Shown: one piece after another, positions 1 to 14,663 of the stretch
How the letters are laid out: every line of letters begins with the position of its first letter
Numbering within the stretch: the first letter of the stretch is position 1
DNA from: a virus
Reading direction: 5' to 3' (one strand)
DNA: 28,172 nucleotides
IMG/VR virus record: IMGVR_UViG_3300042862_000570
Location: 1 to 28,172 of that record
The notes under the pieces: model-generated
Database searches by the model: none
What the model was told of the DNA's origin: nothing
What the model saw: the letters and a program-made list of their open reading frames with translations, nothing else
Translations under genes and position numbers: made by a program

Positions 1-1449
1 ACGACGCACGTTGATACGATCTAAAGATGATCTTTTCTTTTGTAATGTTTTTTGTCCAAATATTACTACTCCTGTATTAGGGTAAGTTGTAAGTGGGTTA
101 ATATTTGCTTGATATAATGTATCTCTATTACCTTGAGTTAATACACGTTCTGCTTGTGTAGCAGTAGTTAAAACACCTCTATTAATACCTGCAGGTGCAA
201 ACCAAGGAGCAGTTACATTATCATTAAATGCATATATTCCTGGGATTAATGTTGAAGCTGGTACCCATACTTGATTAGCTGTACTTGGGTCAATTGTTTT
301 AACCCAAGGCCAATATGTTGCAGCGTAAGAAGTATCATATACTGATGTATCTGTTAATACTTGGGAAATTTGAGCTCCATATTTTGAAGAATCAAATACT
401 ACCATCATATCTCCTCTATTTTGAGCAATAGAAACCATAGAAGTAATTGCAGATGTAGCTACACCTCCTGTGTTAGATATTAAACCAGGAGCAACTAATA
501 AATTGTAACTAAATGCATCTTTATTTGCTAATAATGAAATAGATTCAGTATAAGCACTAGCCGATATACCTTGAATATTTGTTGAGGTAGTAATATTTTC
601 GTAGTAATTTGCTATTACACCTGTTGGTACATTTTTTCCTACAGCACTTCCAAAAGAACCACTTGCATTAATTGGAATTGAACCTGTGTATATAGATTTT
701 GGATTACCTACGTTATCGAAATAGTTAGGTGTTGATTGATTGACTTGTTTAACGCGTACACACGTTGAATTATTTGGATAATTTCCAGATAATTGAACAT
801 AATATTCACCATTATCACTTGCTACACTTTCAACTTGATTACCAATTACTTTTTCAATATAATTTGAAGAGAATGGATCTAAAGATAATGGACCCCAGGT
901 TTCAACTACTGAAGGAGAAGTTGAAGTATCATTACCTTGACGGATTAATAGGTTAAATGTACCTAAATCTGTATTAGAGTTTGCAATCTGCCATCTAAAA
1001 TTATTTGATGAACCACTTAATAATGTTCCTAATGACCCTGTTGGGCCTGTACTATTCATTATTTCACCTTTAGAAATAGTTTCTAATATAAAAGGTGCTG
1101 TATTATATGGAGAACCTGCAGAATGTGCTGAAGAAGATATAAATGATGAAGTTGCTGAGGTAAATGTTTCACCTACTACTCTGGTTACAAGTAATGAAGG
1201 ACCTCCATTATTAAAATAGTTATACGCTGCAATAGAGGTAAAATAAGTGTAGGTGTTACTCCCACTAAGGAAAGTATCACCAAACTTATTTAAATAATCT
1301 GTATATGTTGTTACTATTGTAGGGATACCTACTTTACCTTTTACGGTTGGTCCTATAATAGCGGCACCTGCTTGTACAGGGGCTTGAGTTATAAATGATT
1401 GATCATTCTCTATAGCTAATACACCAGGTGATACAATTGTTTCTGCCAT
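1..1449 (-). CDS. Tail sheath protein, gp18-like (C-terminus cut by window edge)
   Basis: Contractile tail sheath subunit, which forms the outer cylinder that shortens during DNA injection. Reading from the ATG at 1449, 483 codons stay open to the window edge. The N-terminus MAETIVSPGVLAIEND and the following GAAIIGPTVKGKVGIPTIV are typical of sheath proteins. The later stretches SIAAYNYFNNGGPSLLVTRV, VWVPASTLIPGIYAFNDN, PWFAPAGINRGVL and the final VVIFGQKTLQKKRSSLDRIN match the conserved sheath C-terminal core (P-W-APAG-RG and FGQ-T). The protein continues beyond base 1, but the preserved part already includes most of the conserved domain. It is the last gene of the window in transcription order. 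An ATATTTATAA element lies 17 nt before the start. The start has no Shine-Dalgarno sequence. The family call is secure; the exact length is unknown. Confidence 0.93.
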   Translation of the reverse strand, partial: MAETIVSPGVLAIENDQSFITQAPVQAGAAIIGPTVKGKVGIPTIVTTYTDYLNKFGDTFLSGSNTYTYFTSIAAYNYFNNGGPSLLVTRVVGETFTSATSSFISSSAHSAGSPYNTAPFILETISKGEIMNSTGPTGSLGTLLSGSSNNFRWQIANSNTDLGTFNLLIRQGNDTSTSPSVVETWGPLSLDPFSSNYIEKVIGNQVESVASDNGEYYVQLSGNYPNNSTCVRVKQVNQSTPNYFDNVGNPKSIYTGSIPINASGSFGSAVGKNVPTGVIANYYENITTSTNIQGISASAYTESISLLANKDAFSYNLLVAPGLISNTGGVATSAITSMVSIAQNRGDMMVVFDSSKYGAQISQVLTDTSVYDTSYAATYWPWVKTIDPSTANQVWVPASTLIPGIYAFNDNVTAPWFAPAGINRGVLTTATQAERVLTQGNRDTLYQANINPLTTYPNTGVVIFGQKTLQKKRSSLDRINVRR

Positions 1450-1780: not shown

Positions 1781-2473
1781 TTATGTAATTGGGTCAAAAT
1801 TTCTAGTGCAATATAAAACTACATTATGTGCTATATTATTTGCTAATCCATATCCTGTTAAAGTTCTCCATTGTATATATATTGGTGTTAATACATCAAC
1901 GGTTATATTTACTCCTTCTACAAATGAATCAAAAGTATCATCATGAGTTAAAGTTTGAGAAAAATTATATATGTTATTACCATAACCTAAACTATATGAA
2001 GAAGTTGAATTAGTTCCAAGGGTTCCATTACAAGTTGTTGAAATACTTGCACTTAATATTTTAATTCTTGTTGGAAGAGATGTTCCCGCTTGATTTGAAC
2101 TTGTTGGTAAAGATGGGATTTGTTGTGTACTTGGATTACAATCAAAATAGTAATAAGTACTATCATTTATTGTTGTAACTTGCCCATGATGTAATTGAAT
2201 AACTAATGTATCATAAGAAATATTAGCATAATCTGTGTTACTTGATGATCGTGCAGTATGGGAATATGATGATGATAAAGCGTAAGATGCATTAGTTATT
2301 AAATTACCTGTTACTGGTGAGTCTAAATTTAATGGACCTATAATATTTAATGAGCCTGATAAGGTTATGTCATATGCGCTTATTCCTGCAAATGCATCAA
2401 TTGATTGAGTAACGTGCCATACTCTAATAGTACTGTTATCTACTATACCTGTTTTTGAAAGTGTATTAGCCAT
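1781..2473 (-). CDS. Structural-type protein, third member of a tandem paralogous trio
   Basis: 230 residues. The first ~55 residues (MANTLSKTGIVDNSTIRVWH, then VTQSIDAFAGISAYDITLSG) are nearly the same as in the two genes upstream. The shared plan is a VTQSIDAF motif, an AYDIT-SGSL-x-x-G stretch, a short ASYALSSSYSHTA module, then a ~120-residue domain ending in AHNVVLYCTRNF. The paralogues end in THNVNLYIKR and SHNITLFLYP, so the HN-x-x-L-x-strand is conserved and is probably the core of the C-terminal beta domain. The middle domains have diverged strongly. The gene overlaps the upstream paralogue by 8 nt, indicating translational coupling. A tail-fibre or baseplate decoration role is inferred from the ASYA modules, which also occur in the fibre genes here. 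No enzymatic motif is visible. Confidence 0.8.
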   Translation of the reverse strand: MANTLSKTGIVDNSTIRVWHVTQSIDAFAGISAYDITLSGSLNIIGPLNLDSPVTGNLITNASYALSSSYSHTARSSSNTDYANISYDTLVIQLHHGQVTTINDSTYYYFDCNPSTQQIPSLPTSSNQAGTSLPTRIKILSASISTTCNGTLGTNSTSSYSLGYGNNIYNFSQTLTHDDTFDSFVEGVNITVDVLTPIYIQWRTLTGYGLANNIAHNVVLYCTRNFDPIT

Positions 2474-3143
2474 TAGTTCTTTTAATATATAAATTTACAT
2501 TATGTGTAACCTTTGTTGGTTCTGCATACCCAGTTGTTCCTGTTTCTACAAGGACATATATTTTATCACCTTGTGTTACTGGTAATTGTTGGTTATCTCC
2601 GGATGTTATTGTATTTGATCCTGTAAGATACCTTAATGGATTTGTTTGAAAAGAAAAATTTGTAGAATTTACATATAATCTTACATTAGAAGTTAAAGAA
2701 CCCGTTATACCTGCTACTACAGAAGTAACAGTGGTTCTATATATTATCCCATCACCTTTAGGGTATATAATCCCTACAAGATCTGCAGATGAGGTTGATT
2801 GGTTTCCTGCTCCTATATTATAATTATATGATTGGGAAATATCGGTTCTTGGACTATATAATTGAAGTATTATAGTTTCATTATCAGCAAATGATGTAGT
2901 TAAAGCATATGAAGATATAGAACCTGTTGAAGCATAAGATGAGGTAATAACGTAAGATGCAGTACCATGAAAATTTTTATTTATGATTGTATCTAATATT
3001 ACACTACCTGTTACAACTAAAGAACCAGATAAAGTAATATCATATGCTTGTGTACCTGTAAAAGCATCAATTGATTGAGTAACATGTCCTGGTTGGACTA
3101 TACTACCCGATAATATTCCATTTTTTGTTAAAATTTGTGCCAT
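2466..3143 (-). CDS. Structural-type protein, second member of a tandem paralogous trio
   Basis: 225 residues. It shares the N-terminal module of its neighbours (MAQILTKNGILSGSIV, then GHVTQSIDAFTGTQAYDITL), followed by GSLVVTGSVILD, the repeat-like ASYVITSSYASTGSISSYAL and a C-terminal domain. That domain contains LQLYSP, YNIGAGNQS, a VTQGDKIYVLVETG strand and the terminal THNVNLYIKRTNG. The matching YYIGAG and VTKGERIYFELRT in the upstream copy show that the C-terminal domains are also homologous despite low identity. The start overlaps the stop of the upstream gene (TAATG) and the stop overlaps the next start, so the three are very likely translated as a coupled set. The function is unknown; a multi-copy virion appendage protein is the most economical reading. 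Confidence 0.8.
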   Translation of the reverse strand: MAQILTKNGILSGSIVQPGHVTQSIDAFTGTQAYDITLSGSLVVTGSVILDTIINKNFHGTASYVITSSYASTGSISSYALTTSFADNETIILQLYSPRTDISQSYNYNIGAGNQSTSSADLVGIIYPKGDGIIYRTTVTSVVAGITGSLTSNVRLYVNSTNFSFQTNPLRYLTGSNTITSGDNQQLPVTQGDKIYVLVETGTTGYAEPTKVTHNVNLYIKRTNG

Positions 3144-3796
3144 TATACAGGGTATAAAAATAAGGTAATATTATGTGAGGTAAATAATGGGGGTTGGGTT
3201 GGATCTGTTCGAAGTTCAAAATAAATTCGTTCACCTTTAGTAACAAGAATATCTCCAATATCTTCTAAAAAATAATTAAAAGAATTATCATATAGTACTG
3301 GGGTTTCAAATGCAAAGATTACACCTGAGCTATCATATATAGAAAGATCATTCCCCCATGAAGAAGTGGTTTGGCAAGTAGAAACTACAGAAGCACAAGA
3401 AACTCTAGAATCAACAGGTATAGTTATTCCACAAGTATCAGATCCTATAATTTCTCCTGCTCCTATATAATAAATAGTACTAGGAACCATGTATTCTATA
3501 GTGGGTGCATAAAATTGTAAAGAATACCCATTTGATAAATTATATTCTGCTTTTGATGCACTTACTACATTTGGTGTATAATTTGTATATGAAGAGGTTA
3601 TAGCTATAGAAGCTGATTCTGATGTTGTGCCTAAAACACTTCCACTAACTTTTAAACTACCTGTTAAAGTAAAAGATCCGGATACAGTTATATCATATGC
3701 ACTTACTTTTGTAAAAGCATCAATGGATTGAGTAACATGCCACGCATCTACTTCATGTCCTAAAACTATTCCGGATTTAGATAGTATATTCGCCAT
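3143..3796 (-). CDS. Structural-type protein, first member of a tandem paralogous trio
   Basis: 217 residues. The N-terminal module is MANILSKSGIVLGHEVDAWH then VTQSIDAFTKVSAYDITVSG, followed by GSFTLTGSLKVSGSV and a short SIAITSSYTNY segment. The C-terminal domain has LQFYAPT, YYIGAGEIIGSD, LVTKGERIYFELRTDP and a final SHNITLFLYPV, each with a counterpart in the two downstream paralogues. It is the first gene of the trio: an ATATTTATAA element lies only 4 nt before its ATG, directly after the glycosyltransferase stop, so a transcription unit may restart here. I do not recognise a named family. The shared SGSL/ASYA style of the N-terminal half resembles the fibre proteins further right in the window. 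Confidence 0.8.
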   Translation of the reverse strand: MANILSKSGIVLGHEVDAWHVTQSIDAFTKVSAYDITVSGSFTLTGSLKVSGSVLGTTSESASIAITSSYTNYTPNVVSASKAEYNLSNGYSLQFYAPTIEYMVPSTIYYIGAGEIIGSDTCGITIPVDSRVSCASVVSTCQTTSSWGNDLSIYDSSGVIFAFETPVLYDNSFNYFLEDIGDILVTKGERIYFELRTDPTQPPLFTSHNITLFLYPV

Positions 3797-3800
3797 TTAG

Positions 3801-3810
3801 TTATAAATAT
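3801..3810 (-). promoter_or_regulatory. ATATTTATAA element before the paralogous trio
   Basis: Exact intergenic decamer in the 19-nt gap between the glycosyltransferase stop and the first paralogue, 4 nt from the ATG. If it is a -10 element, the mRNA would be leaderless or nearly so. Confidence 0.45.
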
Positions 3811-3815
3811 GTGAC

Positions 3816-4694
3816 TTAGATATTCTTAACTATTTGATCTACATCAAACATTTCCTCTAAATCCATATAAGGGCATTCATATTGTAATCCTTCAAATGAG
3901 TAATTAAATAAATATGAACCGATTAATTTTGGATTTGCAGTAGGTTCATTTGCTGTTATATTGTTATGCAATGCATACCCGAAATTCTTAGGGGATGTAC
4001 CGATCCAAAATACAGTTGATTCTAAACCAAAAGCAGCAGCAGCATGTTGTAAACAAGAATCAATTAATATACGTTTATCACTATTTGCTACTAAAGAAAA
4101 TAAATCAACAGCTAACATACTTTGATCAAGTACTTCAGCATTCGGTATTTTTAATGAATTTGGTTTACATACCTGGATTATATGGTGAGATTCTTGGTAT
4201 TTTTCAGCAATTGCGGATGCTAATTTAAATGGTAAATCTCTAGTCCAAGCATATTCAGAGTTATTGTCTAATGGACCTCCATTTGTTTGGATCAATAGAA
4301 TTGGTTTTTCTCTATTCCATCTAGAAGAATTACGTTTTTGAGGAAAGTTGAAATAAAAAGATGGTACTTGAGATGTATATTCTATATCCATTAATTTACA
4401 CCAATTAGCAATTAAGTGTTTTTGATTTAATATATGATGGGTTTCATCATATGGTTCATGTTTGAATATTAAAGTATCCTTGTCTTTTACATAATCATCA
4501 TAAAAGTATTGTGTGTTACCTATTTTATAAACGCGGTATATGCTAGGGTGTGTTAAAAACACCTCAGGCCATGAAGCAACAACAATAATTTTTCTATCGT
4601 TGTATTTTTCTTTTAGACTATCAATTAAAGAAGTAGCAGCTATGTTTTTACCTAAGCCCCCTTCAATATGCCATATTATATATTTTTCTTCCAT
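3816..4694 (-). CDS. Glycosyltransferase family 9-like (heptosyltransferase-type) protein
   Basis: 292 residues with a GT-B, ADP-heptose-LPS-heptosyltransferase-like layout. The N-terminus YIIWHIEGGLGKNIAATSL (residues 5-23) is the glycine-rich first loop. A second Rossmann-like half begins at PILLIQTNGGPLD (residues 131-143). IDSCLQHAAAAFGLESTVFW (residues 211-230) is the family-9 nucleotide-sugar site, where bacterial enzymes have D-S/T-G-x-x-H-x-A-A-A-x-G. The usual glycine of this motif is replaced by Cys214, but the Asp and His are kept. It is the last gene of the sulfation cassette, 1 nt after the DUF2061 gene. The family is clear in outline. Donor and acceptor sugars cannot be read from the sequence; a surface polysaccharide or a virion glycan are both possible. 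Confidence 0.75.
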   Translation of the reverse strand: MEEKYIIWHIEGGLGKNIAATSLIDSLKEKYNDRKIIVVASWPEVFLTHPSIYRVYKIGNTQYFYDDYVKDKDTLIFKHEPYDETHHILNQKHLIANWCKLMDIEYTSQVPSFYFNFPQKRNSSRWNREKPILLIQTNGGPLDNNSEYAWTRDLPFKLASAIAEKYQESHHIIQVCKPNSLKIPNAEVLDQSMLAVDLFSLVANSDKRILIDSCLQHAAAAFGLESTVFWIGTSPKNFGYALHNNITANEPTANPKLIGSYLFNYSFEGLQYECPYMDLEEMFDVDQIVKNI

Positions 4695-4695
4695 A

Positions 4696-5142
4696 TTATT
4701 TTTTTGATCCTATTCTAATGTATTTGTACCAAATGCGTTCGTGAAAAAAGTAAATTATCGGTTTAAATATTAATTCACCTACCCCCAATAATGAGGATAT
4801 CTCAAATGACATTCCTAAAGAATATGCTGTAATCACTGTAATAAGAGTACCTATGATTCTATATGATAATGTTTTTAGGATATGTCGAGTCATTACTGAC
4901 TCCTCTTTAATGGTAATGATGTAAGCTACATTATTTTTAATACTAACGTATCCTTCACAGCTAATATGCCATTTATAATCTTGGATATCTTCCATCCAAT
5001 CTTTTGATGTATAAGTATGACCATCTATTACAATATCCGATACTAAAATTTCTTCACCGTCAGTGATTAAACGCCAACGATCTTCTTCACAAGTAGATAC
5101 TGTATTGAATCGAATTTGGAATTGTTGAGATTTTGCATTCAT
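4696..5142 (-). CDS. DUF2061 membrane protein with an N-terminal soluble domain
   Basis: 148 residues in two parts. Residues ~7-77 form a soluble beta-rich region (QFQIRFNTVSTCEEDRWRLI and KWHISCEGYVSIKNNVAYII) that I do not recognise as a named domain but have the impression of from other phages. Residues ~85-145 match the DUF2061 pattern: RHILKTLSYRIIGTLITVIT, a second hydrophobic segment around EISSLLGVGELIFKPIIYFF, then HERIWYKYI. The R-H-x-x-K-x-x-S-Y-R-x-x-G-T start and the HERIW end are the hallmarks. Two membrane segments (about 93-110 and 115-132) are predicted by eye. Its ATG overlaps the stop of the nucleotidyltransferase (ATGA). As I recall, DUF2061 proteins often sit beside or are fused to APS kinases, which fits this neighbourhood. 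The molecular function is unknown; a role in sulfate or sulfated-product handling at the membrane is inference. Confidence 0.8.
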   Translation of the reverse strand: MNAKSQQFQIRFNTVSTCEEDRWRLITDGEEILVSDIVIDGHTYTSKDWMEDIQDYKWHISCEGYVSIKNNVAYIITIKEESVMTRHILKTLSYRIIGTLITVITAYSLGMSFEISSLLGVGELIFKPIIYFFHERIWYKYIRIGSKK

Positions 5143-5543
5143 AATTTTCCTTCTTTACGCATTTGTTCTCTAACTTTTGTTGCAGATATTTCTGCTATCT
5201 GTATAGGGGGTATATGCTCAATAATATCATAACCCACTCCTCTACCAAACTCAACGGAACATATGTCAGGAACAATACTAACTTTAACTCGACCTTGTAA
5301 ACAAAGTTCTTTATATTCATTTTCAATGGTTTTAAGTACTTCTTTAGCATCGAATGGATTTGATTCAGTTGTTTCAACATCTCTAATTGCAATCCAAACA
5401 TTTTTTCCTTCGTCTAAAGTTTGTTGAAATAATGCTTTATGCCCATCGTGTAGAGGTTGCCATCTACCAATAAACATAGCATATTGGTTTGGTTTAGATT
5501 CAAGAGATGACTGTACGTGTACTTTTTTGCTCCAATTTTGCAT
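5139..5543 (-). CDS. Small HxGH-type nucleotidyltransferase (adenylyl/cytidylyltransferase-like)
   Basis: 134 residues, a single-domain HUP-superfamily nucleotidyltransferase. The nucleotide-binding motif is YAMFIGRWQPLHDGHKAL at residues 21-38 (G-R-x-Q-P-x-H-x-G-H, with His32 and His35). The C-terminal ISATKVREQMRKEGKL has the I-S-x-T-x-x-R motif at residues 119-125. The same two motifs occur in NadM-type adenylyltransferases, glycerol-3-phosphate cytidylyltransferases and, in altered form, ATP sulfurylases, so the substrate is not decided by sequence. The next gene upstream is an APS kinase, so an ATP-sulfurylase-like job (making APS) is an attractive but unproven idea. The annotated ATG at 5543 overlaps the APS kinase by 44 nt. 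The next ATG (Met23, 5477) would leave only two residues before the motif, so I prefer the longer form. Confidence 0.8.
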   Translation of the reverse strand: MQNWSKKVHVQSSLESKPNQYAMFIGRWQPLHDGHKALFQQTLDEGKNVWIAIRDVETTESNPFDAKEVLKTIENEYKELCLQGRVKVSIVPDICSVEFGRGVGYDIIEHIPPIQIAEISATKVREQMRKEGKL

Positions 5544-5964
5544 AACTTTTTATTTTATTTAAACATTCCTCAACTGAAATATTTGTTGTATCAATGTCAA
5601 GATAATTTTCTGTTGGTTGTTGATAGTTTTCAACATGGAAATTTTCTCTACCTCGTATTTCAGTAGTGTGAATATAATACTCCTTTATAGATTCTCCAAG
5701 TTTGCTTTTAAAATCTTCTCGTTGATCTTTATAAGGGGAAACTAACGATACAACTACATTACATTCTTTGTTGTGTAAAAAATGAGCTAAATGTTGAGCT
5801 AACTCAATATTTTTGCGGCGACCTGCTTCACTATAGTCTTTATTATCAAATATAGCGCGCAGGTCATCTCCGTCAATATGAAATGTGTTGTCTAGTTCTT
5901 GCTTTAAAGCAGTTGCCAAAACCGTTTTACCATGTCCAGGTTGCCCTGTAAACCAATATATCAT
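5500..5964 (-). CDS. cysC: Adenylylsulfate (APS) kinase, CysC-like
   Basis: 154 residues. Phosphorylates adenosine 5'-phosphosulfate at the 3' position to give PAPS, the universal sulfuryl donor. Evidence is the P-loop FTGQPGHGKTVLATAL (GQPGHGKT, residues 7-14), HIDGDDLRAIFD (residues 29-40, the D-G-D-x-x-R motif that contacts substrate), GRRKNIELAQHLAHFL, and VVVSLVSPYKDQREDF, which corresponds to the CysC V-S-x-I-S-P-Y-x-x-x-R signature. The C-terminal third (YIHTTEIRGRENFHVENYQQ, then LDIDTTN) is of the short phage-type variety, and the protein is ~40 residues shorter than typical bacterial CysC (about 200). It lies two genes after the sulfotransferase, which would use its product. Assignment as an APS kinase is strong; activity is inferred. 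Confidence 0.88.
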   Translation of the reverse strand: MIYWFTGQPGHGKTVLATALKQELDNTFHIDGDDLRAIFDNKDYSEAGRRKNIELAQHLAHFLHNKECNVVVSLVSPYKDQREDFKSKLGESIKEYYIHTTEIRGRENFHVENYQQPTENYLDIDTTNISVEECLNKIKSYAKLEQKSTRTVIS

Positions 5965-5980
5965 AACTTTTTTAAATATT

Positions 5981-6220
5981 TTATACTATGTATGCTTTTC
6001 CAGCAGTTATAGCAGCATTGATGTCTGTTACTTGTTGTGTTGTACAACCAGCTTCAAACCAATCTTTACCTAACATCAATTCAAGATGTTGAAAATTGCG
6101 TTCTACATTATCTTTTCTGTTGTCTGTTGCTTCTTTTTCAATTTCATTGTTAATTAAATTAACTGAATCGAATGCAGCTTTAATGTGGTTTTGTACTTGT
6201 TCTGGTGTTTGAGTTTCCAT
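5981..6220 (-). CDS. Small unidentified protein in the sulfation cassette
   Basis: 79 residues, not recognised. It is acidic and apparently all-helical (PEQVQNHIKAAFDSVNLINN, NVERNFQHLELMLGKDWFEA), ending in TTQQVTDINAAITAGKAYIV. A single Cys (position 59) sits in the EAGCTTQQV segment. It lies between the sulfotransferase and the APS kinase on the same strand, with 16 nt to the kinase start. An ATATTTATAA element is located 8 nt upstream of its ATG, so it may be the first gene of a unit running through to the glycosyltransferase. A cassette-specific helper is possible, but nothing in its sequence shows a function. Confidence 0.75.
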   Translation of the reverse strand: METQTPEQVQNHIKAAFDSVNLINNEIEKEATDNRKDNVERNFQHLELMLGKDWFEAGCTTQQVTDINAAITAGKAYIV

Positions 6221-6228
6221 AATTTTTA

Positions 6229-6238
6229 TTATAAATAT
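6229..6238 (-). promoter_or_regulatory. ATATTTATAA element before the 79-residue protein/APS kinase unit
   Basis: Exact decamer lying directly against the sulfotransferase stop codon (read as TAATATTTATAA) and 8 nt from the next ATG. It may separate expression of the activation genes from that of the sulfotransferase. Confidence 0.45.
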
Positions 6239-7059
6239 TAAATGTAATTGAATTTTTTAAAATACCAATCATAATGTTGGCGTAAACGATCGCATTGTTC
6301 TTTTCCTAAAATTTCAACAAAATTATCTTTTACAGGTTTGATTTGTGGTTGGATTTTGTGGTCTCCAAATATACCATGGATAACATCATTTTCATGTGTT
6401 AACTGTTCAACATTATTAAAATCGTGTTTAAAGTATGGCAATTCTAAATAATTGTATACTTTTTTCATTTCGGTTTCAGGATCTACAGTTAAATCCTCAA
6501 ATCGTATAAACAAAATGTCTTTATCTATTCCTTGGTGAATTGTTTCAGATAACCATTCCATTGAAGGCCCAATTGGTGGTGCTACAGAAAAATGATCTAC
6601 TCTAGCTCCTGTGGTCATGTTTTTTAACTCAACACCATTGATAATCATTGGGTCTTTATCAGGGTGTTTGCGGAAGTTTTTTTCCATGGAGGCAAATATA
6701 GCACGTAAATCACGAACCATAACAATCATTTTAGGTTTTTCGTCCATGAAAAATTCAATAAAATTGAAATGACCTAACCATCCTCTACTTTTTTCCATTA
6801 CATAAGGACGATCTGTAATTCCATCAAAGAAACCATGGATTCCAGTTTTACAGAAATTTTTAAATCCTGTTTTCATTACATCTTGGTCTTGTGCTTTAAA
6901 AGCATCACCTGAAGAGTATACAGCTCTTGCATTTAATAGAAATTCAATTACACCAGATGTAGGTGTTGAATAAATTTCAGGATTTTGCATTAATATGTTT
7001 TGAATTAATGTTGATCCAGCTCGGGGCATTGACGCGTTATAGAATATTTTTTTTACCAT
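6238..7059 (-). CDS. PAPS-dependent sulfotransferase
   Basis: 273 residues, a sulfotransferase-superfamily enzyme that moves a sulfuryl group from PAPS to a hydroxyl. The 5'-phosphosulfate-binding loop is MPRAGSTLIQNIL (PRAGSTL, residues 12-18). The 3'-phosphate-binding site is MVRDLRAIFASM (residues 114-125, with Arg116 and Ser124 in the expected R-x(7)-S spacing). The later ILFIRFEDLTVDPETEMKKV segment is the usual F/Y-E-D/x-L-x-x-D/N-P conserved block. Overall order and the PR-G-S/T-T-L loop resemble sulfotransfer_3/tyrosylprotein-sulfotransferase-like families. No signal peptide is visible, so it should act in the cytoplasm. It starts 41 nt after the giant fibre gene and is followed by the APS kinase. 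The acceptor is unknown: fibre tyrosine or threonine, a lipid or a glycan are all open. Confidence 0.88.
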   Translation of the reverse strand: MVKKIFYNASMPRAGSTLIQNILMQNPEIYSTPTSGVIEFLLNARAVYSSGDAFKAQDQDVMKTGFKNFCKTGIHGFFDGITDRPYVMEKSRGWLGHFNFIEFFMDEKPKMIVMVRDLRAIFASMEKNFRKHPDKDPMIINGVELKNMTTGARVDHFSVAPPIGPSMEWLSETIHQGIDKDILFIRFEDLTVDPETEMKKVYNYLELPYFKHDFNNVEQLTHENDVIHGIFGDHKIQPQIKPVKDNFVEILGKEQCDRLRQHYDWYFKKFNYI

Positions 7060-7100: not shown

Positions 7101-10100
7101 TTATGGAACAAGAGCAATTTTACGTAAAACTCCATTAATATATACAGGCCAATATGAGTTAGAATACTGTGTAGCATAACCAATAGTTCCTAACGGTACT
7201 GCGGTGCTTCCTATGTGGAAATAGTTATTATCTTGAAATTGAACTTGATTTCCTATAGCTACAGAGCAGTTATAATTGGATGGATTACTATTTTCACGTC
7301 CTATAGAGATATTATTACAAGAAGAAGAGGAATTATCCATTGATCTAAATCCTATAGCAATATTATAATCACCACCTGATAAACCATATAAAGCATTTTT
7401 ACCTAGAGCAATATTTGCGGATCCATCTATATTATTATATAAAGCATAATAACCTATTGCAACTGTTGGATTTTGTGTTCCAACTTGATTACGTGCTGCT
7501 TGAAAACCTATTGCTATATTACCAGGATTTTTGTTAGAACCAGTACATCCATGTTTTCTTAAAGCTTCAAAACCTATTGCTATATTTACGTCATTACATT
7601 GGTTGAAATAAAGTGCATTATGTCCTATAGCTACATTATTAGCTCCTGTTGTATTATTAAGTAAAGCAAAATATCCTATTGCTGTATTATAACATCCGGT
7701 TGTGTTAGCACATAAAGCTCTATTACCTATTGCTGTATTATATGCTCCTGTTGTATTATAGCGTAAAGCATTAAGTCCTATAGCTACATTATTATTTCCT
7801 TCTGTGTTATATCGCAATGCAGCTTGACCTATTGCTGTGTTGTTATTTCCTGTTGTATTATTAAGTAAAGCACGTTGACCTATTGCTGTATTATTAGCTC
7901 CTGTTGTATTAGAGTGTAGTGAATATTGGCCTATTGCTGCATTATGTGCTCCTGTGGTGTTTGCTTTTAAAGCTTCCCAACCTATTGCTGTATTACTATA
8001 TCCTGTTGTATTTGTAAATAAAGCACATAAACCTATTGCTGTATTACTATATCCTGTTGTGTTATATCTTAAAGAATTAAAACCTATTGATGTGTTATTA
8101 TTTCCAGTTGTATTTTCACGTAAAGCAGATCTACCTATTGCTGTATTATTACACCCTGTTGTATTGCAAAATAAAGTAGTATTACCTAATGCTGTATTAT
8201 AAGATCCATAGGTATTGCTCTTTAAAGCAGCATAACCTATTGCTGTATTATTATATCCTGTTATATTATTACGTAAAGAATATTTACCTATTGCTGTATT
8301 ATGTTGTCCTGTTGTATTGGAATTTAAAGCTGAAGATCCAATACCTGTATTATTATCTCCTGTTGTATTGCAACGCAGTGATCGGAAACCTATTGCTAGG
8401 TTGTTATTTCCTGTTGTATTTGCATTTAAAGCTGATAGTCCAAATGCTGTGTTATAATTTCCTGTTGTATTATAACGTAAAGATTCACAACCTATTGCTG
8501 TATTATTAACTCCTGTTGTATTATTAAGTAAAGCAAAATATCCTATTGCTGTATTATTAGTTCCGGTTGTATTTGCTATTAAAGCTGATAGCCCAAATGC
8601 TGTGTTATTAGCTCCTGTTGTATTTGCTTTTAAAGCTTGATTACCTATTGCTGTATTAAAAGTTCCGGTTGTGTTATTATGTAAAGTATATTTTCCTATT
8701 GCTGTGTTGTTATTTCCTGTTGTATTATTAAGTAAAGCAAAATATCCTATTGCTGTGTTATCACATCCTGAGGTATTGCAACGCATTGATCGGAGACCTA
8801 TTGCTGTGTTGTTATTTCCTGTTGTATTTACTTGTAAAGTAGCTTGACCTATTGCTGTATTATGAACTCCTGTTGTATTTGCTTTTAAAGCTTGGTTACC
8901 TATTGCTGTATTATTACACCCTGTTGTATTTGTAAATAAAGCACATAAACCTATTGCTGTGTTATTACATGCGGTTGTATTATTAGATAAAGCAGATCTA
9001 CCTATTGCTGTATTATATGTTCCTGTTGTATTAGTACATAAAGAACCACTACCTATTGCTGTATTATTAGTTCCGGTTGTATTACACGCTAAAGATAAAA
9101 CACCTATTGCTGTATTATTACATCCTGTTGTATTATTACGTAAAGAATATTTACCTATTGCTGTATTATATTGTCCTGTTGTATTGGAACGTAGTGAACA
9201 TTGACCTATTGCTGTATTATCATTTGCTGTTGTATTAAATCTTAAGGCTTGATAACCTATTGCTGTATTATGACATCCTGTTGTATTGGAAAATAAAGCT
9301 TGTCTACCTATTGCTGTATTATTATTTCCGATTGTGTTAAGGCGTAATGATTGGTAACCTATTGATGTGTTGTTTATTCCTAAGGTATTACAAAATGATG
9401 ATTGGAGACCTATTGCTGTATTATGATTTCCTGTTGTATTATTATATAAAGACCGACACCCTATTGATGTATTATTAGTTCCTGTTGTATTGGATTTTAA
9501 TGAATAATTACCTATTGCTGTATTATTAGATCCTGTTGTATTGTATCGTAGTGAACATTGACCTATTGCTGTGTTATTATTTCCTGTTGTATTTGCAATC
9601 AAAGCAAATCTACCTATTGCTGTATTATGGTACCCTGTTGTGTTTACATATAAAGCGTTATTACCTATTGCTATATTATAAGCTCCTGTTGTATTAGAAC
9701 CTAAAGAGTATGAGCCTATTGCTGTGTTATTATTTCCTGTTGTATTTCTTCTTAAAGCTCTATTACCTATTGCTGTATTATTATTTCCTGTTGTATTACA
9801 ATATAAAGCTTGTCTACCTATTGAAGTATTGGAAGTTCCTGTTGTATTAAATTGTAAAGATCGATATCCTATTGCTGTGTTATGAAATCCGCTGACATTA
9901 TTGCATAAGGTGTTTCTACCCATTGCAACATTATTAGTTCCTGAAGTGTTATTAAATAGAGAATATCTTCCTATTGAGATGTTACTAACCCCTGTTGTGT
10001 TTTTACTTAAAGCATTGGTATTAATTGCTGTATTGTATCCTCCAGTAGCAGATCCACTAAAAGCAGTTGTTGAACCAATTGAAACGTTTGTTGAAACATT

Positions 10101-11117
10101 TCCATTTCCTCTATTAATAAATAGATCATTTATAGTTCCATTTGAACCTGAAGTGGAAATACTACCTGTTACCCCTAATGAGCCTGTAATTAAAGCAGAG
10201 CCTGTAAATGGGAAAGGTGGTGTTGATGGTGCATATGAAGCACTTAATGCATATGACGATGATAAAGCATATGAACTTGATAATGCTTGAGTTGCATATG
10301 AAGCGGTTCCTGTTAATGTTCCTGTAAATGAACCACTAAATGATCCTGTATTGGATAAAAATTGATCTACTCGGTTTGCTGTTACAATAAGAGAAGGAAT
10401 ACCTGGTACTACTCCGAATGCTGGTTCTGCATGTAAACGAACATTTGCATCGGGTGAATACCACATTAATTGGAAATAGTCACCTGCAGCTGCATTTACA
10501 AAGAAATTCCAGGCTGCAACATAATGAGCTCCATTTCCCACTAATTGTACTGATGTTGCTGAATCTGATAGATCAGTTCCATTTTTTCTAATCCATATCC
10601 ATATTTCATCGGTTCCACTATCTGTTTTATCTATTTGAGCAGAAAATTGAATATCATATACCCCAGCATTTGCTACTTTAATATATGTGTTGAATGGACT
10701 TGTTGAACCAGAAATAGATACACCATTTGTAATATCGGTTGTATTAAGAGACATTGATCTGGCGGTTCCTGCTACGTTTGTTTGGGTTGTAGTGTCATAA
10801 AAACTCCCATACGAACCAGTTGCTGTATTAAAAGAAGGTCCTCCTCCACCAGTTGAAGAAATTGTAACTTGACCTTGACCATTTGTTGGAGATAAAGTAA
10901 CATTAGGTCCTGCTAACAATTGTGTTACACCACCATTTAAAGCATAAGATGCTGTTAAAACACTATTTGAACCATAGGGTCCATATACGTTTGATCCTGT
11001 TACAAAAGAAGCTGTTGAAGCGGTTCCTAAAAGTGAACCGGTAATACCGTTTGTGACTAGAAGAGAATTCAGGGCAGCGTCAGAGCCCGAGGTAATGACT
11101 TTTTTCCAATTTGGCAT
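7101..11117 (-). CDS. Giant repeat-containing fibre/adhesin protein
   Basis: 1338 residues. Order of parts: residues 1-25, MPNWKKVITSGSDAALNSLL, a likely virion-attachment module shared with the 372-residue fibre protein; ~35-60, TGTASYAL-type modules; ~95-255, a probable C1q/TNF-like jelly roll (TYIKVANAGVYDIQFSAQID, DEIWIWIRKNGT, HYVAAWNFFVNAAAGDYFQL); ~260-300, ASYAL-type heptads; ~360-1160, 47 consecutive 17-residue repeats with consensus NTAIG-x-x-S/A-L-x-x-NTTG-x-x; then ~7 degenerate repeats and a short tip, NYFHIGSTAVPLGTIGYATQ to the end. The repeats look like the YadA-head type of left-handed beta-roll found in trimeric adhesins. No S74 chaperone or lyase motif is present at the C-terminus. 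It is probably a long receptor-contacting fibre. The ~26 cysteines in the repeats are unusual. Confidence 0.85.
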   Translation of the reverse strand: MPNWKKVITSGSDAALNSLLVTNGITGSLLGTASTASFVTGSNVYGPYGSNSVLTASYALNGGVTQLLAGPNVTLSPTNGQGQVTISSTGGGGPSFNTATGSYGSFYDTTTQTNVAGTARSMSLNTTDITNGVSISGSTSPFNTYIKVANAGVYDIQFSAQIDKTDSGTDEIWIWIRKNGTDLSDSATSVQLVGNGAHYVAAWNFFVNAAAGDYFQLMWYSPDANVRLHAEPAFGVVPGIPSLIVTANRVDQFLSNTGSFSGSFTGTLTGTASYATQALSSSYALSSSYALSASYAPSTPPFPFTGSALITGSLGVTGSISTSGSNGTINDLFINRGNGNVSTNVSIGSTTAFSGSATGGYNTAINTNALSKNTTGVSNISIGRYSLFNNTSGTNNVAMGRNTLCNNVSGFHNTAIGYRSLQFNTTGTSNTSIGRQALYCNTTGNNNTAIGNRALRRNTTGNNNTAIGSYSLGSNTTGAYNIAIGNNALYVNTTGYHNTAIGRFALIANTTGNNNTAIGQCSLRYNTTGSNNTAIGNYSLKSNTTGTNNTSIGCRSLYNNTTGNHNTAIGLQSSFCNTLGINNTSIGYQSLRLNTIGNNNTAIGRQALFSNTTGCHNTAIGYQALRFNTTANDNTAIGQCSLRSNTTGQYNTAIGKYSLRNNTTGCNNTAIGVLSLACNTTGTNNTAIGSGSLCTNTTGTYNTAIGRSALSNNTTACNNTAIGLCALFTNTTGCNNTAIGNQALKANTTGVHNTAIGQATLQVNTTGNNNTAIGLRSMRCNTSGCDNTAIGYFALLNNTTGNNNTAIGKYTLHNNTTGTFNTAIGNQALKANTTGANNTAFGLSALIANTTGTNNTAIGYFALLNNTTGVNNTAIGCESLRYNTTGNYNTAFGLSALNANTTGNNNLAIGFRSLRCNTTGDNNTGIGSSALNSNTTGQHNTAIGKYSLRNNITGYNNTAIGYAALKSNTYGSYNTALGNTTLFCNTTGCNNTAIGRSALRENTTGNNNTSIGFNSLRYNTTGYSNTAIGLCALFTNTTGYSNTAIGWEALKANTTGAHNAAIGQYSLHSNTTGANNTAIGQRALLNNTTGNNNTAIGQAALRYNTEGNNNVAIGLNALRYNTTGAYNTAIGNRALCANTTGCYNTAIGYFALLNNTTGANNVAIGHNALYFNQCNDVNIAIGFEALRKHGCTGSNKNPGNIAIGFQAARNQVGTQNPTVAIGYYALYNNIDGSANIALGKNALYGLSGGDYNIAIGFRSMDNSSSSCNNISIGRENSNPSNYNCSVAIGNQVQFQDNNYFHIGSTAVPLGTIGYATQYSNSYWPVYINGVLRKIALVP
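7638..10034 (-). repeat. In-frame tandem array, 47 x 51 bp, inside the giant fibre gene
   Basis: I aligned the units from the first NTAIN (ending at base 10034) to the last NTTGAN (base 7638). The span is 2397 bp, exactly 47 x 51, with no length variation inside. Conserved positions are N1, A3-I4-G5, L9 and N12-T13-T14-G15. Positions 6, 7, 10, 11, 16 and 17 vary freely. At DNA level the invariant part on the plus strand reads cctattgctgtatta. Beyond 7637 about seven further units of 17-22 residues follow with weak conservation. Confidence 0.95.
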
Positions 11118-13334: not shown

Positions 13335-14663
13335 TTATGAAAGTGATCCTGATCTCCATGCACCAGCCATCCAAACATAGAAGTAATGATTTCCTGTTAT
13401 GGTTGCAAATATCATTTCTCCATCTGTACCTGTCCAAGATGGAATAGTTGATTGGGTAGTTGGTAATATAATTGAACCTGACATTCTGACTTTAAAGGCA
13501 TCTTGACGAGCACCAAAAACACCATTTCCTATAATCATTAATGAAGTGTCATCACCTTGGGTATTGTATTGACCTTCAACATGTTGATATGAACCTGAGG
13601 CTATAGTTTGGTTTCCCTCGGCATGTGAATAATCTCCTAAAGAAATAGTAGAATTTCCTTCAGCATGGGATGAATATCCGGTAGATTTAGTTAATTCCCC
13701 TTCAGAGTGGGAGTAATTTCCAATAGCTTGTGTATATGAACCCTCAGCATGTGAATAATTACCTGAAGAAATGGTAACTGCACCTTCAGCGTGTGAAGCA
13801 TAACCTGAAGAGTCGGTTTGTTGACCCTCAGCATGTGAAAAATCTGCGGATGAGGTTGTGCGACGGCCTTCAGAATGGGACCAATTACCTGAGGCTGAAG
13901 TTTGGTAGCCTTCAGCATGGGATTGGACTCCAAATGCGAATGTTAATCCACCTTCGGCATGTGAACCGTCACCGAAGGCATTTGTTTGAGAACCTTCAGC
14001 ATGGGAATTTGATCCTGTAGCTGTAGTATTATATCCTTCAGCATGAGAAAAATCACCTAAAGCATTTGTGTTATTTCCTTGAAAAAGACTATTTAATGTG
14101 TAACTATAAACAAAATTGTCATTACCACCAAATGTTCCATTATTATTATACTGGATTTGCATATTTGATCCTCCAGGAGCACCACTACCTCCTGCTGATC
14201 CACTGATTTGGAATGATGTTCCTACTTGATTTATAGTAATATTAGGACCTGCCGTTAGATCAACATATGAAGATGTTTGAGCATTTTGAACATATGAAGC
14301 GGTTTGAGCTGTTCGAATAAATGATGCTGTTGAAGCAAATGAACTAGAAATTGCATTTTGAACATATGAAGCACTTACTGCATTTAAAACATAAGATGAG
14401 GTTTGAGCATTTTGAACATATGAAGCCGTTTGAGCTGTTACAACATATGAAGCCGTAGTTGCGGTTCCTTGTAATGAACCTGTAAAAGATGTTGCTGTTA
14501 AACTCCCGGTAATAGCTTGATTAGTGCTTTCATTAAATAATAAACTATCAGTCATATTAATAAGATTATCTCTTATATCTGCTGCAGAAATATCTCCTGA
14601 AGTATTGTCAGCTAATTGGGTATTAATAGCTGCTTGTAATGTTGTTTTGTTTTGTTGTGACAT
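13335..14663 (-). CDS. SHAEG-repeat fibre/adhesin protein (YadA-head-like)
   Basis: 442 residues. The N-terminus MSQQNKTTLQAAINTQLADN, then NLINMTDSLLFNEST, is a helical start typical of phage structural proteins. Residues ~50-135 hold a series of ASYV/ASFA modules (TASYVVTAQTASYVQNAQTS). GPNITINQVGTSFQISGSAG and GGSNMQIQYNNNGTFGGNDN follow as a beta linker. Residues 203-370 are twelve consecutive 14-residue repeats, G-x-x-SHAEG-x-x-T-x-x-x, the pattern of trimeric autotransporter head beta-rolls. The last ~70 residues (DDTSLMIIGNGVFGARQDAF, MIFATITGNHYFYVWMAGAW) form the tip. It is probably a trimeric receptor-binding or decoration fibre. It sits directly after the gp15-like gene. Confidence 0.82.
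   Translation of the reverse strand: MSQQNKTTLQAAINTQLADNTSGDISAADIRDNLINMTDSLLFNESTNQAITGSLTATSFTGSLQGTATTASYVVTAQTASYVQNAQTSSYVLNAVSASYVQNAISSSFASTASFIRTAQTASYVQNAQTSSYVDLTAGPNITINQVGTSFQISGSAGGSGAPGGSNMQIQYNNNGTFGGNDNFVYSYTLNSLFQGNNTNALGDFSHAEGYNTTATGSNSHAEGSQTNAFGDGSHAEGGLTFAFGVQSHAEGYQTSASGNWSHSEGRRTTSSADFSHAEGQQTDSSGYASHAEGAVTISSGNYSHAEGSYTQAIGNYSHSEGELTKSTGYSSHAEGNSTISLGDYSHAEGNQTIASGSYQHVEGQYNTQGDDTSLMIIGNGVFGARQDAFKVRMSGSIILPTTQSTIPSWTGTDGEMIFATITGNHYFYVWMAGAWRSGSLS
13554..14057 (-). repeat. In-frame tandem array, 12 x 42 bp (SHAEG repeats)
   Basis: Twelve adjoining 14-residue units without indels, 504 bp in all. The S-H-A/S-E-G core is present in eleven; the last is degenerate (QHVEG). 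The following T is conserved in the first eleven units. Positions around the core vary. This is the YadA-head/Hep_Hag style of repeat. Confidence 0.92.

Follow-up and report, generated by a model that had tools for sequence, protein, structure and literature searches.

The subject of this analysis is a 28,172-nucleotide stretch of viral DNA (IMG/VR virus record IMGVR_UViG_3300042862_000570, positions 1 to 28,172; termed here the window) and, within it, a group of genes flanked by a repeat fibre gene and a tail sheath gene. The 28-kb window is a fragment of a T4-like phage, and six consecutive, intact minus-strand open reading frames (ORFs) fill positions 3816-7059. These genes (termed the cassette) quite probably both supply 3'-phosphoadenosine 5'-phosphosulfate (PAPS) and use it for sulfation. 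In minus-strand order they are:

6238..7059, minus strand: SULF, a PAPS-type sulfotransferase of 273 aa (PF13469 8e-13, PF00685 2.8e-12; PRAGST loop)
5981..6220, minus strand: a small 79-aa protein, kept in place and present in 16 of 90 cassette loci
5500..5964, minus strand: KIN, a compact P-loop kinase of 154 aa resembling adenosine 5'-phosphosulfate (APS) kinases (PF01583 4.8e-14)
5139..5543, minus strand: NTP, an HxGH nucleotidylyltransferase of 134 aa, predicted to be a minimal ATP sulfurylase (PF01467 2.5e-5)
4696..5142, minus strand: a small N-terminal domain fused to a C-terminal DUF2061 membrane protein (PF09834 2.3e-14, residues 88-138)
3816..4694, minus strand: a glycosyltransferase of 292 aa with a predicted GT9 (heptosyltransferase-like) fold (PF01075 in some relatives)

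A first-pass annotation, made from the sequence alone, had named five of these genes; all five are intact ORFs, and curated models for four of them (SULF, KIN, NTP and DUF2061) score above gathering thresholds. It described the genes as consecutive, with gaps or overlaps of a few bases, which is accurate for the shared strand and for most junctions (-4 to +17 nt), but not for the KIN/NTP junction, where the overlap is 44 nt, nor for the interval between SULF and KIN, which holds the sixth gene, whose 79-aa product has no match in Pfam and PHROG scans. A sequencing indel in the 44-nt overlap (which contains a run of six A), splitting what is really one fused KIN-NTP gene, is ruled out by the conserved separate NTP start: this segment (M..W.KK.HV.SSL) is kept as its own start in dozens of contigs, where the two genes share as much as 80 nt or stand as far as about 350 nt apart. 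The DUF2061 call applies to the C-terminal half only (PF09834, 54 bits versus a gathering threshold of 23.1), whereas the N-terminal ~80 residues (RWRLI..G.E.LVS, KWHI.CEG) are a separate domain, matched by no Pfam family, that forms a stand-alone small gene in many relatives. The 'HDGH' motif assigned to NTP is properly HxGH, its second residue being variable. The family-9-like label of the glycosyltransferase is borne out by relatives and by fold rather than by the window copy, for which a Pfam scan gave no significant PF01075 (GT9) match: PF01075 is matched by 7 of 23 relatives (best 3.1e-5), and the top Foldseek matches of the predicted model (pLDDT 85) are 3tov (5.8e-11), WaaF (1psw; 1.8e-9), WaaC (2h1h) and TibC, i.e., GT-B folds of the GT9 type. 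Proteins of about 700 aa that join a GT4-type to a GT9-type domain adjoin some cassettes (L077 5374-7482, L429 8353-10476).

SULF exceeds the gathering thresholds of two Pfam families (PF13469, 49.6 versus 27 bits; PF00685, 47 versus 22 bits), and its relatives keep both PAPS-binding motifs, namely the PR.GST loop and the R/S pair, with P12, R13, S16, T17, R116 and S124 invariant. The nearest solved chains are tyrosylprotein sulfotransferases (profile E 7e-10, in two partial stretches); this match is weak, so that the identification of SULF as a protein-tyrosine sulfotransferase was dropped and no acceptor is deduced from it.

The recurrence of these genes was surveyed by four independent scans of IMG/VR, seeded with NTP, SULF, the GT9-like enzyme (GT9) and KIN, each of which contributed the best 80 loci of at least ~600 candidate stretches; the resulting counts are lower bounds. 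Co-occurrence denotes presence within 5 kb, among loci flanked by at least 3 kb on each side for the first three seeds and among all 80 loci for the KIN seed. (Loci were chosen by likeness to the window proteins, contigs are fragments, and near-identical contigs are counted except where loci are called distinct.) All 54 NTP-seeded loci contain KIN, 52 contain DUF2061, 43 SULF and 40 GT9; the 58 SULF-seeded loci contain GT9 in 46 cases and KIN and NTP in 31 each; the 53 GT9-seeded loci contain SULF in 49 cases and KIN and NTP in 34 each; and NTP is present in 78 of the 80 KIN-seeded loci. Cassette genes recur together in well over 100 other contigs, which excludes chance for the gene set, and this co-occurrence is far above background, given that SULF was found by tblastn in just 10 of 50,697 phage records. 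The scatter that would have undone the cassette, as the first-pass annotation had it (genes distributed without regard to fibre genes, and likewise to one another), is contradicted by this strong reciprocal co-occurrence and by a repeat fibre near 72 of 90 distinct loci; hence a PAPS supply joined to PAPS use and to a sugar transferase, as proposed there, is still the best reading. The accompanying view that the complete set has no known parallel was mistaken, as the set is widespread in IMG/VR. Likewise, NTP had been recognized as a small nucleotidyltransferase and DUF2061 as part of the set, but not the probable sulfurylase role of the one (i.e., a supply line starting at sulfate) nor the membership of the other in the supply module.

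Two submodules are distinguished here, namely donor supply (KIN-NTP-DUF2061) and transfer (SULF-GT9), because of the co-occurrence pattern and because SULF-GT9 pairs are also seen where the supply genes are lacking (e.g., in the cyanophage-like record AG-345-L05). GT9 and SULF take different positions around the KIN-NTP-DUF2061 core from locus to locus, which fits what is expected of recombining modules. One contig (L429) carries SULF-KIN-GT9 without NTP. Of 11 KIN-NTP contigs with no SULF next to the pair, three encode it at another place on the contig, and in another three a more divergent Sulfotransfer_1 match is present. KIN and NTP are a single protein in PHROG 10255 and in the Stenotrophomonas phages DLP_6 and Bhz60. 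In some large-phage contigs (L398 3800-5399, L402 5337-5945 and others; 11 of 73 loci) KIN-NTP adjoins short proteins that carry an R-N-P(Y/F) motif like that of sulfotransferases. Their reading as a second sulfotransferase-like family was considered and rejected, as only one of three proteins tested gave a Pfam match, which at 0.0011 was under the cut-off.

KIN scores 53.1 bits against PF01583 (gathering 21.1), and its best matches in a PDB profile search are APS kinases (1e-19). Its P-loop, DGD..R, aromatic-S...R..NI and (S/A)P(Y/F) motifs align with those of canonical CysC proteins (loci L163 and L317), and G12, K13, D31, G32, D33, R36, R49, N52, P77 and R82 are invariant in phage KIN; a canonical-CysC query gave no match in viral contigs. 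NTP, which ranges from 112 to 138 aa across relatives, scores 24.9 bits against PF01467 (gathering 21); the motif residues H32, H35, S120 and T122 are invariant, and relatives keep the segments GRWQPLH.GH, PDI..I.FGRGVGY and ISATK.R. Its AlphaFold model (pLDDT 92.9) has the Rossmann-like fold of ATP-using adenylyltransferases (CoaD, Z 10.4; NadM, Z 9.7). In three loci (L035 7431-8396, L075 7446-8411 and L079 1853-2815) NTP bears an extra N-terminal domain of ~190 aa that begins DISG..FGKL, followed by CxCDCGN; it has no Pfam match and is perhaps an inserted homing-endonuclease-like element.

Relatives of NTP in cellular genome contigs (the best 80 of 109) are mostly found in SAR11. In SAR11 strain HIMB058 (L190 3710-7334), the genes after NTP encode a QmoC-like membrane protein, AprB and AprA, the last two with TIGR02060 and TIGR02061 above cut-off. 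Among 147 genomes of the SAR11 family of GTDB, 78 have NTP, 65 have AprA and 58 have both; that is, NTP occurs in 58 of 65 AprA-positive versus 20 of 82 other genomes (Fisher odds ratio 26, p ~5e-16, ignoring relatedness and completeness), and in 31 of the 58 genomes with both it lies within 6 kb of aprA, on the same strand every time. Canonical Sat is present in 5 of the 147 genomes (3 of the 65 AprA-positive ones), and CysN over cut-off in none of 15 SAR11-family genomes checked. When AprBA runs toward sulfate it releases APS, and a sulfurylase is then needed, as is established in the biochemistry of sulfur oxidation (PMC2211403); NTP, located in the aprBA operon, is a candidate for the sulfate-forming enzyme otherwise missing from sulfite oxidation in SAR11. 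Of the 20 NTP matches in AprA-negative SAR11-family genomes, 13 sit in an ORF of 258-289 aa, and all nine of those read are KIN-NTP fusions, whose neighbours are mostly sugar or polysaccharide genes; sulfotransferases adjoin the fusion in L326 and L336 and lie nearby in L327. Beyond SAR11, a Marinimicrobia-like genome (L163) has NTP immediately behind a full-length canonical CysC (TIGR00455, 255 bits), and in Bacteroidota DUF2061 adjoins cysH-cysD-cysN at four of seven loci (gene families were checked for L350). In larger SAR11-family genomes (L333, L335, L338, L339, L340) NTP, mostly with KIN, lies far from aprBA, and in some of these it stands beside genes that read as a Rieske oxygenase, a methylenetetrahydrofolate-reductase-like and an aminomethyltransferase-like protein.

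NTP is thereby coupled to enzymes that make or use APS, and is so in more than one independent setting: aprBA (SAR11), canonical CysC (L163) and KIN (phages and SAR11). Because APS is the one metabolite common to the settings of NTP, KIN and DUF2061, NTP is probably, judging from context and modelled fold, an ATP sulfurylase by function that makes APS for the kinase; KIN-NTP is read here as a putative compact PAPS synthase, and DUF2061 as a likely accessory of sulfate activation belonging to the supply module. In the proposed scheme NTP would convert sulfate and ATP to APS, KIN would phosphorylate APS at its 3' position with a second ATP to give PAPS, SULF would pass the sulfate from PAPS to an acceptor, and the GT9-like enzyme would add a sugar to the same target before or after sulfation; DUF2061 would be a membrane protein of the sulfate-activation pathway, perhaps serving sulfate entry. 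Having its own PAPS supply, the phage would therefore not need to depend on the host PAPS pool. More generally, it is on balance likely that NTP represents a new minimal HxGH ATP sulfurylase family, distinct from Sat and CysDN, which in SAR11 is the missing AprBA partner turning APS to sulfate and ATP, and which, in phages and in polysaccharide loci, supplies a compact APS kinase with its substrate and so provides PAPS for sulfotransferases acting on phage fibres or cell surfaces.

Several observations weigh against this interpretation. The solved sequences nearest to NTP are nicotinamide mononucleotide (NMN) adenylyltransferases (NadM; E 3e-9, N-terminal half only); the window NTP reaches 16.4 bits against a PF01747 (Sat) cut-off of 24.3; and hhalign of NTP against a profile of four Sat sequences gave no signal (probability 0.6%). 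The last two results rule out NTP as a canonical Sat, and weak PF01747 matches are seen in 18 of 27 NTP relatives (best 1.3e-4). Hence the sulfurylase claim is founded on context and fold, not on Sat homology. (Sat is absent among the 50 structure matches listed for the NTP model, which is uninformative either way.) KIN reaches 59.5 bits against the cut-off of 138.7 for the NCBIfam apsK equivalog TIGR00455, and it is accordingly filed as APS-kinase-like rather than as a CysC equivalog; phage KIN is missing the KGLY/FTGI lid segment of ~20 residues, and SAR11 KIN lacks DGD and R..NI. Many KIN-NTP contigs, short or partial ones, have no sulfotransferase nearby. Shared ancestry and genome completeness can inflate the AprA-NTP association, and the TMED217 genome (G006), which has the CysC-NTP pair, also has a canonical Sat-CysC fusion, so that NTP fills no gap there.

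The acceptor is best considered in the light of the surrounding genes. The minus-strand order is portal, protease, major capsid protein, PhoH, neck, structural genes, giant repeat fibre, cassette, three small structural genes and tail sheath. The nearest relative of the major capsid protein is that of Flavobacterium phage immuto (57% identity), which suggests, on the basis of this capsid relative only, a Bacteroidota host. The window and immuto agree in gene order over the portal-to-fibre segment and once more at the sheath, with other genes in immuto at the position of the cassette, and none of the five cassette profiles matched within the 41.6-kb immuto region compared; given this synteny on both flanks and the different genes inside, the interval between fibre and sheath is a variable site into which the cassette was inserted as an accessory element. 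Among the 90 distinct cassette loci, the 72 with a repeat-rich fibre ORF in the fetched stretch have it mostly upstream, at a median of 1.4 kb; downstream lie a tail sheath (39 loci) and a tail-tube-like gene (28 loci), and further glycosyltransferase-like genes occur in 15-18 loci (families checked for some members). A fibre related to that of the window, in L050, matches the UspA1_rep adhesin repeat (5e-19). The flanking features of the window are:

7101..11117, minus strand: giant repeat fibre of 1338 aa, with a tandem array at 7624-9883 (51-nt unit, ~44 copies)
6229..6237, minus strand: TATTTATAA, an intergenic promoter-like motif before the small 79-aa gene, common with virion genes
3801..3809, minus strand: TATTTATAA, the same promoter-like motif, intergenic, before the gene following the cassette
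3143-3796, 2466-3143 and 1781-2473, minus strand: three overlapping or adjacent ORFs after the cassette, presumed structural or fibre-like
1..1449, minus strand: tail sheath, cut by the window end (phrog_23 tail sheath, 6.7e-38)

The TATTTATAA motif, whose core reads as the T4 late box TATAAATA on the opposite strand, has minus-strand sites with lowest plus coordinates 1467, 3801, 6229, 11189, 12796, 13308, 17699, 19164, 19671 and 26787. All 12 window copies (both strands) are intergenic, intergenic DNA being 4.2% of the window, and of the 10 copies on the coding strand, 8 have their end 4-18 nt upstream of a start codon; 10 of 11 copies in the immuto region (L341) are intergenic, as are 148 of 219 in cassette loci versus 15 expected by area. 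By its placement the motif looks like a late-promoter element giving very short leaders. The idea that the core cassette is under TATTTATAA promoters of its own was abandoned: just 2 of 90 loci have the motif ahead of one of the core genes, and these genes are therefore probably read through from upstream.

If the cassette indeed supplies PAPS for sulfation, then a virion component (the fibre, or another virion protein bearing a short glycan) is slightly favoured as the acceptor; a fibre or virion protein is the likeliest choice because the cassette, within the late virion block, has the fibre gene on one side and the tail-sheath gene on the other. With the same PAPS chemistry, sulfate could instead be placed on a surface glycan of the infected host, where late receptor hiding would stop superinfection or the re-adsorption of progeny to debris, an alternative that is less probable but still to be taken seriously. 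Pelagimyophages carry glycosyltransferases in a fibre-bearing variable region, for which the authors of that survey favour modification of the host O-chain (PMC7029224). The location of SAR11 KIN-NTP fusions in surface-polysaccharide loci, the classic role of GT9 enzymes as lipopolysaccharide transferases and the presence of other glycosyltransferases near some cassettes point the same way. The position of the cassette within the late virion block, beside the fibre in most loci, speaks for the virion instead, as does the promoter-like motif that cassette-flanking genes have in common with virion genes, since such timing suits virion modification better.

That KIN and NTP make some other activated donor, either a 3'-phospho-nucleotide of the Campylobacter phosphoramidate capsule type or an HldE-like nucleoside-diphosphate sugar for the GT9 enzyme, is unlikely. 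A kinase and a nucleotidylyltransferase are a common donor-building pair (as in HldE and in Campylobacter Cj1415c/Cj1416c), and the CysC-annotated kinase of the phosphoramidate capsule works on a CDP-linked group; KIN, moreover, scores about equally with the NCBIfam subfamily PRK05541 and has a sugar transferase gene close by. However, HldE kinases have a ribokinase fold and Cj1416c another nucleotidyltransferase fold, SULF keeps its PAPS-binding motifs, NTP goes with DUF2061 (itself found beside cysHDN), and NTP also stands beside aprBA without KIN in SAR11 and beside canonical CysC.

Phage cysC in freshwater has been taken as serving assimilatory sulfate reduction (Chen et al. 2024, COBRA; PMC10914622), and KIN belongs to the same Pfam family as the cysC of that study; the cassette shares with those cysC/cysH auxiliary genes a freshwater setting and a phage-encoded APS-kinase family, and differs in that KIN is here part of a sulfation cassette. 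It is nevertheless very improbable that KIN assists host sulfate reduction to cysteine, considering that NTP accompanies it in 78 of 80 loci and that SULF and GT9 often do so too, and considering the polysaccharide loci in which SAR11 KIN-NTP fusions lie and the lack of a match to any PAPS/APS-reductase (CysH) or sulfite-reductase family among the PHROG-scanned ORFs of the window, a genome fragment. Least credible of all is a NadR-like NAD salvage pair (ribosylnicotinamide kinase and NMN adenylyltransferase, directed for instance against an NAD-depleting defence), which the rank of NadM as nearest solved relative of NTP (E 3e-9; fold Z 9.7) recommends, but which is at odds with APS kinases as the best KIN matches, with the sulfur context of most readable settings and with the confinement of the NadM match to the N-terminal half of NTP.

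The supply module, as read here, invites comparison with bifunctional PAPS synthetases (animal PAPSS and bacterial Sat-CysC fusions), which likewise pair an APS kinase with an HxGH-superfamily adenylyltransferase; in PAPSS the kinase comes first, as in the KIN-NTP order, and KIN-NTP is itself fused in some phages and in SAR11. Unlike those synthetases, NTP is 112-138 aa long and not recognisable as Sat, KIN is without the lid, and in the window the two are overlapping genes. Sulfated capsule and Nod-factor loci also combine a local PAPS supply, a sulfotransferase and sugar transferases in one locus, whereas the cassette lies in a phage tail-fibre block and has NTP in place of CysDN. TibC and other heptosyltransferases of autotransporter adhesins have the GT9 fold of the cassette enzyme, at only ~11% sequence identity; TibC acts on a repeat adhesin. 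The sulfotransferases of cyanophages S-SCSM1, S-SRM01 and S-SKS1 are of the same family as SULF (25-27% identity), and tblastn found neither KIN nor NTP in these three records. The pelagimyophage glycosyltransferases resemble the cassette in lying among tail-fibre genes of T4-like aquatic phages, and differ in that sulfo-genes are unmentioned there (PMC7029224). A literature search, with most subscription journals outside it, returned no description of the cassette or of an NTP-type gene as a sulfurylase.

Should the proposed scheme be correct, aquatic phages would carry, beside their adhesins, a set of genes that by itself suffices to turn inorganic sulfate into a sulfated product, and with it a new post-translational or glycan modification of virions or infected hosts; the reading of phage cysC would then shift from sulfur assimilation to sulfation. 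NTP, as a new ATP sulfurylase family, would fill a gap in SAR11, where AprBA is present, Sat mostly absent and CysN over cut-off in 0 of 15 genomes, and would thus be relevant to the way in which the most abundant bacteria of the ocean oxidize sulfite.

Neither Rfam nor tRNA searches gave a match in the window; a Pfam scan likewise gave none for the three genes in 1781..3796, whose structural or fibre-like role is surmised from their place ahead of the tail sheath. The window contains a second gene of adhesin-like type (13335-14663), which has two YadA head repeats and lies upstream of the giant fibre.

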